Below are positions 11,481-14,521 of a stretch of 64,000 nt of DNA, in pieces. The notes beneath the pieces were generated by a model. That model saw nothing but the letters and a program-made list of their open reading frames with translations. It made no database searches and was not told the DNA's origin. The first letter of the stretch is position 1. Every line of letters starts with the position of its first letter. Made by a program: the position numbers and the translations under genes. The stretch is from assembly GCA_023248215.1 (NCBI GenBank), contig JAHFEW010000010.1, positions 1 through 64,000 on the forward strand, given 5' to 3'. Source of the DNA: Nitrospira sp. GTDB lineage: Bacteria; Nitrospirota; Nitrospiria; Nitrospirales; Nitrospiraceae.

Positions 11481-12632
11481 ATGACGAGACGCCTCGACCA
11501 AATGTGCCGCATTCTCACGAGTCTAGCCCTCGTCGGATTTTTGTCGACGAGCGTGGGTGGATGCGTCGAAACGGTTCCCGACGAGTTGGTAGAAGCCATC
11601 GAAAGCATCGACCGTGATTTGGTGACGCTACGAGCCTCGGATATTACTCCCGAGGCTTACTCGAAATTCAACCGTCAATGGATCGCATTGAGGGCCCGCG
11701 TCCAATCCGAGGAAAATATCGTTCGCTGGCCATGGGAAGAAAATGAGCTGGAGACCCACCTGGAGAACCTTCAAGTCGAAGGGATGCAGCTCGTTGCCGA
11801 CGTCAACACGCGCCTCCAGGCGCAACGCACCTCAGCCGAGACGAAGCTGGCCAAGGTCGAGCAGCGGTTGCGCCTGCTGAACACCCGCGTGGGGGATATC
11901 GGGAGCCGCGTGGTGCTCGGCGAACATCCCGTCGAAACGGAACTGCTCGTGAAACAAGCCCGCCTGTTTCTGGAGCAGGGACAGTTTGAGCAGGCACTCC
12001 AGGCTTCAGACCGTGCCGGGAAAATCCTGCTCACACAAACCGCGTTGCTCACCAATGAATTGGGCCGCTATGCCGATGATGACCTCATTGCGGCTTGGAG
12101 AGAGTCTGCCCAACGAACCATCGAATGGTCCCGAACCCACCGGGCACAGGCGATCGTGATCAGCAAGGCCGACCGAGTCCTGTCACTCTACAAGAATGGT
12201 CGAAAAGTTCTGACCTATCCGATCCGCCTGGGCTCAAGAGGAATTCGAGCAAAGCAGCACTATGGAGATGGCGCCACCCCCGAAGGCGAATATCGCATTC
12301 ATCGCAAGCGCGGATCGGGACAAACTCCTTACTTCCGCGCCCTTATTCTCGATTATCCCAATGCCGACGACCGTCGACGCTTCGAAGAAGCGCAAAGGGC
12401 GGGGTTGATTCCAAGAAGTCAACCCATGCCGGGTCTCATCCAGCTCCATGGCATCGCACAGGGCATTACGGATCAACCATTCGGTAGCATCCTCCTGGAC
12501 AACCCCCAGATTGCCAAGCTGTTTGATCAGGTGGCAGTGGGAACGCCGGTCACGATCGTCGGCGCGTTGGAATCGCACAACTCCGTCTCTCTGGTATTGG
12601 CCGATTTAGGCGATCAGGAAGAGGAAACCTGA
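11481..12632 (+). CDS. Lipoprotein with L,D-transpeptidase-like (YkuD/YafK) domain lacking the catalytic Cys
   Basis: The 383-aa protein has a lipoprotein-type signal ending in VGGC (about residue 28). A helical, coiled-coil-like middle (about 40-200) follows, then a C-terminal domain resembling YkuD/ErfK L,D-transpeptidases (about 220-370). The latter shows IVISKADRVLSLYKNGRKV, GDGATPEGEYRIHRK, the active-site-region LHG (His near 323) and a terminal VAVGTPVTIVG. The usual SxGCI(R/A)L motif reads PFGSILLDN, so the nucleophilic Cys is Ser near residue 336. It may be a non-catalytic peptidoglycan-binding relative or use Ser. It stands alone, divergent from rpmH. Confidence 0.8.
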   Translation: MTRRLDQMCRILTSLALVGFLSTSVGGCVETVPDELVEAIESIDRDLVTLRASDITPEAYSKFNRQWIALRARVQSEENIVRWPWEENELETHLENLQVEGMQLVADVNTRLQAQRTSAETKLAKVEQRLRLLNTRVGDIGSRVVLGEHPVETELLVKQARLFLEQGQFEQALQASDRAGKILLTQTALLTNELGRYADDDLIAAWRESAQRTIEWSRTHRAQAIVISKADRVLSLYKNGRKVLTYPIRLGSRGIRAKQHYGDGATPEGEYRIHRKRGSGQTPYFRALILDYPNADDRRRFEEAQRAGLIPRSQPMPGLIQLHGIAQGITDQPFGSILLDNPQIAKLFDQVAVGTPVTIVGALESHNSVSLVLADLGDQEEET

Positions 12633-12817
12633 GAGCACCGGCGCTGCCTGCCACCCTGCAGCCCTCCTGCCCCTCCGACCGATAGAGACCATTCTTCATC
12701 TACCACCGACACGGCGTTCAGACATCCACCTGTTTGCCTTTTTGAATTCGCGAACCTAAGATACGAACCGGACAAGGTGCATCGATTCGTTCCGCCACCA
12801 TTGGAAGAGAGCGTGCT

Positions 12818-14521
12818 ATGCCAATCCGTCCCAACGCATCTCAAATTCTGGACAACGACAGCATCCGCCGGACGCTCGACGACCTGGCAAATAGCCATGC
12901 CATCGAACGTATGTGGACAAGGGACCATACCCTTTGGAAGCCTGATCCGACGGAGATCGAAAACCGGCTGGGTTGGCTGACGGTTCTCGACCATATGCAA
13001 GACGGGCTGGCCGACTTACGCACCTTTGCGCAGGCCTCCCGCGAGGCCTCCACGACTGACGTCGTCCTCCTGGGAATGGGGGGAAGCAGCCTGGGACCTG
13101 AAGTCCTTCGCTGCACCTTTGGCTCGTCGAAGGGCTCTCCTCGGCTCTGGGTGTTGGATTCAACTGTGCCTGGCTGGGTGCGCCATGTCACCAATTCAAT
13201 TCAACCCGCACGGACACTGTTCCTCGTCGCGAGCAAATCCGGCGGAACCATCGAAGTCATGTCACTTTTCGCCCACTTTTGGGACTTGATCCACCGCACC
13301 AAGGGAAATCGAGGCGGCGCTCAGTTTGTGGCCATCACTGACCCAGGGACAGGACTCGAACAACTCGCGCGCGAGCGCGGGTTTTGGCGCACATTCATCA
13401 ATCCTCCGGACATCGGTGGACGGTACTCCGTCCTGTCATATTTTGGCTTCGTTCCCGCCGCCTTGTTGGGACTGGATGTGGGCAAACTCCTCGCGAGAGC
13501 CCTCGCCATGCGGGAAGCCTGCCGAAAGCCATCGCCGGTAAAACGAAATCCCGGGGCTGCACTCGGAGCCATGATGGGAACCATGGCCCGAACCGGACGT
13601 GACAAGGTCACCCTCATCACATCGCCGGCACTCAATTCATTCGGACTCTGGGTGGAGCAACTGCTCGCCGAAAGCACCGGCAAGGAAGGGACCGGCCTCG
13701 TCCCCGTGGCTGGTGAGCCTCTCGCCGCCCCAAAAGCCTACGGAACGGATCGAGTCTTCGTGTATCTTCGACTGAAAGGCGATCGCAATACCTCGCTGGA
13801 TCGATCCGCAACGGCCCTGCAACGTGCCGGGCATCCCGTTCTTCGCTTGGACTTGGCAGATCGCTACGATCTAGGAGGCGAGTTCTTCCGTTGGGAGTTC
13901 GCGACCGCCATTGCGGGACACACTCTCGGCATCCATCCCTTCGATCAGCCCAACGTGCAGGAGAGCAAAGACAATACCGGTCGGGTCCTGAAAGAAGTGG
14001 AAACACAGGGCAACCTGCCTTCCCTACCGGCGGTATCGCCCAAGCAGGCCCTGGCCCAATTGCTCGAACAGGCGGCGCCGAATCGCTACCTGTCTATTCT
14101 GGCGTACACCACTCCGTCACCTCAAATGGAAGCCGCCCTGCGGGCCCTTCGAAAGGCTGTCATGCTGCGACATCACCTGGCCACCACGGCAGGATATGGT
14201 CCCCGCTACCTACATTCAACCGGGCAGCTACATAAGGGAGGCCCAAACAGTGGTCTCTTCCTCGAATTGGTCGATACGATGAAGCCTGATGTGCCGGTCC
14301 CCGGAAAATTCTATACGTTCGGCACGCTGGCCCAGGCACAAGCCATCGGCGACCTTCAATCTCTGCACATGCACCAACGCCCGGCCTCACACATCGCGCT
14401 GGGACGAAACCCCGTGGGTACGATTCGCAGCCTCGTCGCTCTGCTCACACCAACCAAGACCGGCAGCAGCAAGCCGGTCGCGAAGAAACGGGCTGCGCTC
14501 AAACATCGCGCCCACCGGTGA
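12818..14521 (+). CDS. pgi: Glucose-6-phosphate isomerase
   Basis: The enzyme interconverts glucose-6-phosphate and fructose-6-phosphate in the cytoplasm. The 567-aa product has two SIS-type sugar-isomerase halves: VVLLGMGGSSLGPEVL near residue 83 and LVASKSGGTIEVMSLF near 134 (phosphate-binding SKSGGT). It also has the FDQPNVQESK motif near 380. It resembles the isomerase half of transaldolase/glucose-6-phosphate isomerase fusions but has no transaldolase domain. The start ATG follows GGAAGAGAG. The next gene, pgl, begins 1 base after its stop, so these genes form an operon. Confidence 0.92.
   Translation: MPIRPNASQILDNDSIRRTLDDLANSHAIERMWTRDHTLWKPDPTEIENRLGWLTVLDHMQDGLADLRTFAQASREASTTDVVLLGMGGSSLGPEVLRCTFGSSKGSPRLWVLDSTVPGWVRHVTNSIQPARTLFLVASKSGGTIEVMSLFAHFWDLIHRTKGNRGGAQFVAITDPGTGLEQLARERGFWRTFINPPDIGGRYSVLSYFGFVPAALLGLDVGKLLARALAMREACRKPSPVKRNPGAALGAMMGTMARTGRDKVTLITSPALNSFGLWVEQLLAESTGKEGTGLVPVAGEPLAAPKAYGTDRVFVYLRLKGDRNTSLDRSATALQRAGHPVLRLDLADRYDLGGEFFRWEFATAIAGHTLGIHPFDQPNVQESKDNTGRVLKEVETQGNLPSLPAVSPKQALAQLLEQAAPNRYLSILAYTTPSPQMEAALRALRKAVMLRHHLATTAGYGPRYLHSTGQLHKGGPNSGLFLELVDTMKPDVPVPGKFYTFGTLAQAQAIGDLQSLHMHQRPASHIALGRNPVGTIRSLVALLTPTKTGSSKPVAKKRAALKHRAHR

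Follow-up and report, generated by a model that had tools for sequence, protein, structure and literature searches.

In the window, by which we mean the whole 64,000-nucleotide stretch of Nitrospira DNA analysed, an open reading frame with an ATG start at 11481–12632 encodes a 383-residue YkuD/YafK-like lipoprotein, hereafter B, whose nucleophile Cys is replaced by Ser; B and its features below are all on the plus strand. The signal peptide and lipobox (11481–11564) read SVGGC28, with the Cys28 codon at 11562–11564. This Cys is invariant across 56 aligned proteins, and by its lipobox B is a bacterial lipoprotein, with lipidation predicted. A helical domain, modelled as helices by AlphaFold, follows at residues 29–221 (11565–12143), and then a YkuD fold domain at residues 222–361 (12144–12563), which was delimited by Pfam profile, AlphaFold model and fold comparison. 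The PF03734 (YkuD) profile matches residues 223–359 with 55.6 bits (cut-off 23.4), which places B in the family, and the nearest solved structure by sequence is 8IKR, the E. coli DpaA (also YafK or LdtF) protein. The initial annotation had described a YafK-like domain, a lipobox and a long helical N-terminal region, all of which hold.

Read directly, the active-site motif is IQLHG-IAQGITDQPFG-S-ILLDN. It includes His323 (12447–12449) of the YkuD active-site His-Gly segment, with H323-G324 invariant in 148 of 148 aligned rows, and, at the nucleophile position, Ser336 (12486–12488), whose AGC codon had been correctly noted at the outset. The catalytic Cys of YkuD-type Cys enzymes is thus absent, and the only Cys residues of the protein are C9 and the lipobox C28, none of them near the site. 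The SxGC pattern from which the substitution had originally been recognised did locate the nucleophile slot, but most Cys members here read T-L-G-C rather than S-H-G-C. Lys258 (12252–12254), likewise invariant in 148/148 rows, aligns with the mDAP-binding Lys83 of E. coli DpaA. The AlphaFold model is less sure at the active-site regions, with mean pLDDT values of 56 for residues 251–260 and 75 for residues 321–340.

Downstream of B, the ORF list leaves a gap at 12633–12817 before the phosphoglucose isomerase ORF (12818–14521). Two further genes, C and D, occupy the equivalent spot in species with Cys, N. moscoviensis for example. The genome from which the window derives is 4.69 Mb in 199 contigs, and its nearest named relatives are N. 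defluvii-type Nitrospira, with protein identities of 94–83% (L106–L122, among the best 80 of 244 relatives).

Cys loss across homologues

A homologue of B is present in 94 of 148 related genomes; the best 80 of 244 confirmed relatives were added to these, and a broken fragment (L101) and a different YkuD protein (L104) were not counted. Of the 29 genomes of the window's genus, 28 carry the gene as an open frame and one, G010 (88 percent complete, 1030 contigs), gives no match; the 28 loci comprise 27 with Ser and one with Gly (G025, whose protein is open and full-length). The substitution, which the initial annotation had proposed to trace through close homologues and had allowed might be an isolated mutation among Cys-bearing relatives, is therefore clade-wide, though among more distant relatives Cys is the rule, with few exceptions. 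Ser also occurs in the sister genus genome G042 and, nested in a Cys group among the best 80 of 244 relatives, at L150; G048 has Gly. Within the family and its sister family f3, all other homologues that could be read have Cys. An isolated sequencing or assembly error was rejected, as Ser is found genus-wide in many assemblies, including single-contig genomes. A replacement Cys elsewhere in the active site, also raised beforehand, was rejected too, since the Cys residues of the 30 distinct non-Cys members lie only at aligned positions 9, 13, 14 and 28, all in the signal peptide or lipobox.

All 28 Ser rows use AGC or AGT as the nucleophile codon and the 118 Cys rows use TGC or TGT, so that a single base separates the two forms. 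A tree of 148 proteins was built without the nucleophile column, near-identical rows and three broken or cut rows (L089, L101 and L175; L089, from genome G078, is broken before the nucleophile site and unreadable there). It requires four state changes, which we interpret as three losses from Cys, the Gly of G048 and the Ser of L150 being two independent ones, and one change from Ser to Gly; the Ser clade has SH-aLRT support of 100. Separately, five near-complete genomes of genus g10 (G063, G067, G076, G080 and G082, 94–99 percent complete) have no B match at all, and B therefore seems to have been lost there.

The four-gene set and its breakdown

In N. moscoviensis the homologue of B is the second gene of a row A-B-C-D (L130:7323-10423) that lies between ribonuclease P protein/YidC genes (the ribonuclease P identity coming from a Pfam check in the window) and the phosphoglucose isomerase gene. 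The same row is common to most Cys loci of the family, and this context changes the story beyond what the single gene would tell. A, a helical lipoprotein, has a tail rich in Lys and Arg: among 87 distinct typical proteins, 67 end in Lys, 13 in Arg and seven in other residues, with a median of five Lys in the last 12 positions. A strict C-terminal Lys like that of Braun lipoprotein was accordingly discarded, 20 of the 87 ending otherwise. The helical part of B is itself distantly similar to A in hhalign (E 6.4e-8, probability 94.7), a likeness to be taken with caution because both are helical. C is a classical L,D-transpeptidase with a T-H-G-C motif and a YkuD match of 72.5 bits; in NCBIfam it scores best, though under the cut-offs, with LdtE and two models of E. 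coli-type L,D-transpeptidases, and it also matches 4lzh. D (L130:9776-10420) has no Pfam or NCBIfam match and shows a weak likeness to C over 43 aligned columns (probability 84.7). It may be a long-standing degenerate YkuD protein, but on so short and weak a likeness we did not adopt it as a second dead member of the fold. C and D occur in an identical set of 48 family genomes.

At the locus of the Ser genus B stands alone. Searches of all 29 genomes of that genus at E ≤ 0.001 found neither A nor C nor D, which rejects relocation of the partner genes. G042 retains A and G048 a diverged A, both without C and D. These two A proteins, beside Ser- or Gly-B, have one and zero Lys respectively in their last 12 residues, and the A beside the Cys-B of G045, which has no C, has four. 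The Lys tail of A behaves similarly to the Cys of B on partner loss, although three of the 87 typical A proteins also have just one Lys.

All 47 family genomes with both B and C have Cys, and 30 of the 31 with an open B and no C lack it, the exception being G045; this count excludes G078, whose B is broken, and G086, which has a partial C but nothing matching B. Intact C is absent in every Cys-losing lineage, as judged for L150 at the locus only. On the tree, a sign test of C loss against Cys loss gave p 0.25–1, three independent losses being too few for the association to become significant. The set tested excluded four rows with short flanks, and in it L068 was scored as lacking C owing to an early-starting open frame, although it does have C, so that the 15 Cys rows without C are really 14.

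Several loci show the set in pieces. At L123 and L125 only about the last third of A is left and C is missing, with Cys-B intact; at L141 C is broken beside an intact Cys-B; L150, in the same tree cluster as these three, combines Ser-B with a truncated A and a broken C; and at L089 B itself is broken. These five look like living intermediates of operon decay, some with remnants of D. Because such intermediates have broken or missing A, C or D beside a Cys-B, the partner genes seem to have been lost first and the Cys later. A different arrangement is seen in sister family f3, where ten loci (L082, L084, L087, L090, L092, L093, L096, L098, L099 and L100) hold second B copies with an A-like neighbour, no adjacent C and Cys kept; since several f3 genomes also carry an A-B-C copy, the module seems to have been duplicated.

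Selection, pocket residues and known YkuD systems

B is under strong purifying selection in the Ser clade, with dN/dS values of 0.058 for the mature protein, 0.051 for the YkuD domain, 0.042 for the catalytic loops and 0.075 for the helical domain (Nei-Gojobori, pairs kept at 0.05 < dS < 1.5, which drops deep pairs and leaves, over the full protein, 178 of the 378 pairs of the Ser clade). For two Cys clades, chosen by hand from the tree, the overall values were 0.074 and 0.107, and those for the catalytic loops 0.032 and 0.041. The loop values are thus slightly higher, not lower, in the Ser clade. The four rows of the decaying cluster (L123, L125, L141 and L150) gave 0.23.

Lys258, Asp263, His323 and Gly335 are unchanging across the 148 rows. 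Sixteen other sites are conserved within each of the two sets, Ser and Cys, but for different residues (at thresholds of 90 percent for the Ser clade and 85 percent for the Cys set of 94 family rows, sister family excluded), 14 of them in the YkuD domain, one in the helical domain and one in the tail. At position 261, which the alignment pairs with DpaA Gln86, 90 of 118 Cys rows carry Gln but all 28 Ser-clade rows, the window protein included, carry Tyr; at position 284, paired with DpaA Tyr109, most Cys rows have Phe, and Tyr is found in 26 of the 28 Ser-clade rows. The catalytic-loop residues E321, T333 and L334 are also changed in the Ser clade. By these alignments, Tyr261 may alter or abolish stem binding, and the pattern as a whole points to a pocket that has been rebuilt rather than abandoned.

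As described in the DpaA report (PMC10653827), Lys83 of E. coli DpaA, the protein of 8IKR, is modelled as binding mDAP through its D-centre carboxylate, and the K83A mutant has no activity. Lys258 of B corresponds to it in the phmmer alignment; chain positions of 8IKR were converted to DpaA numbers by our own reckoning, which fits Lys83, Gln86, Arg108 and Tyr109 together. B differs from DpaA in lacking the Cys and in its extra helical lipoprotein domain of ~190 residues, and it lies outside the curated DpaA equivalog: its match to NF040599 is partial, with 26.6 bits of a 365-bit cut-off, and a Cys-B is similarly far below it at 28.2 bits. 8IKR was not among the best 50 matches of each fold comparison, which is no evidence against likeness. 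Among L,D-carboxypeptidases, fold matches were found to Bd1075 (Z 14.9), Csd6 (12.5) and Pgp2 (12.4), which the same report gives as Cys enzymes trimming stems (PMC10653827); the helical part of B falls outside the matched regions. B shares the YkuD fold with the classical L,D-transpeptidases too (B. subtilis YkuD, Z 15.7; LdtMt1/2; E. coli LdtA-C), but lacks their Cys and S-H-G-C, and it is gene C of the Cys species that is of the classical type.

An intact SHGC motif does occur in another YkuD protein of the window's genome (L001:1123-2037, G000:C131; 73.7 bits). Counting PF03734 alone, which is one family among L,D-transpeptidases, B is the only match at E ≤ 0.001 in 15 of the 28 genus genomes, G023 among them; the other 13 have one or two more, the window's own genome having one.

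In E. coli, LdtA-C attach Braun lipoprotein (Lpp) to peptidoglycan and DpaA detaches it, according to the same source (PMC10653827). For this reason A, B and C of the Cys Nitrospira resemble a substrate, a detaching enzyme and an attaching enzyme, respectively. A, as known here from gene order and tail, is nonetheless a different and longer helical lipoprotein than Lpp, with its Lys/Arg-rich tail, and the window's lineage differs from the Lpp system in having no match to A, C or D.

A Cys-less lipoprotein that has probably outlived its partners

The reading we prefer, with middling confidence, is that B in the window would be the catalytically dead descendant of a DpaA/YafK-like amidase that has outlived its substrate cycle and is kept as a non-catalytic, probably peptidoglycan-binding lipoprotein. 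The ancestral locus would have been A-B-C-D, persisting in N. moscoviensis and most sampled Nitrospiraceae genera, with the Lys-tailed A as a candidate Braun-lipoprotein analogue, C as a transpeptidase of the type that links lipoproteins to peptidoglycan, and B as a DpaA-like enzyme that would detach lipoproteins or trim stems; from its similarity to DpaA, the ancestral Cys-B is predicted to have cleaved mDAP-Lys bonds. Once C was lost, together with A or with the Lys tail of A, such lipoprotein-peptidoglycan bonds would no longer have been made, so that B would have had no bond to cleave and nothing would have held its Cys in place. Decay of the entire locus would have followed in some lineages, and in that of N. 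defluvii B would have been kept under strong purifying selection, its pocket rebuilt, because a lipid anchor joined to a stem-peptide-binding pocket most likely gives a non-covalent contact between the outer membrane and peptidoglycan. Against this scheme, Cys is kept in G045, whose genome gives no match to C, and in the ten second B copies of f3 with no adjacent C. Of the peptidoglycan-binding pseudo-enzyme suggested in the initial annotation, the second half is supported, since Ser is near-fixed, Gly stands in two genomes, C is gone and selection is purifying; peptidoglycan binding, for its part, is suggested by the conserved binding residues.

It is possible, though we think it rather unlikely, that B serves instead as a non-catalytic scaffold or regulator that binds another protein, with the helical domain perhaps its main functional part. 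The rebuilt pocket with its 16 conserved-but-different sites, the loss of partner A, and the strong constraint on a helical domain distantly related to A are all as expected of such a role, but a pure scaffold need not retain Lys258, Asp263, His323 and Gly335, which are invariant in 28 of 28 Ser-clade rows. Less likely again is the other option first raised, an enzyme in which Ser336 is a working nucleophile and the domain now acts as a serine hydrolase, such as a slow amidase or a protein that reacts with beta-lactams. The retention of Ser in 27 of 28 genus loci, the conserved His323 and Gly335 and the strength of selection would suit it, and a Legionella YafK protein shows serine-dependent beta-lactam turnover; in that report, however, the serine concerned is another residue (Ser132) and the Cys is still there (PMC13400389). 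The idea is further weakened by Gly at the site in the full-length protein of G025 and in G048, and by the changes at E321, T333 and L334 of the catalytic loops. Cys-to-Ser L,D-transpeptidases have, moreover, been made as mutants for structures (the C442S and C354S entries), and such mutants are not known to be active. That the gene is merely decaying after loss of its operon partners is very improbable in the window's genus, where it is open in 28 of 29 genomes at a dN/dS of 0.058, even if decay does seem under way in another lineage, as suggested by the Ser of L150, the broken B of G078, the five g10 genomes without a match and the dN/dS of 0.23 in the decaying cluster.

A literature search of titles and abstract openings, in which few subscription papers were covered, found no pseudo-enzyme of the YkuD/YafK fold and no description of the window protein or of the A-B-C-D set. 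If our preferred reading of B as a dead, retained lipoprotein is true, it would be a natural, clade-wide pseudoenzyme of this fold, with living intermediates that suggest an order of events in which partners break, then the nucleophile, and one lineage then keeps the dead protein. More tentatively, and by analogy with Lpp, the Nitrospiraceae set may amount to a whole lipoprotein attach/detach cycle, for which the N. defluvii lineage might have swapped in a lipid-anchored, non-catalytic peptidoglycan-binding tether. Nitrospira would then possess a possible Lpp-like attachment system, with predictions for N. moscoviensis, which has Cys and all of A-D, that differ from those for N. defluvii, which has Ser and only B.
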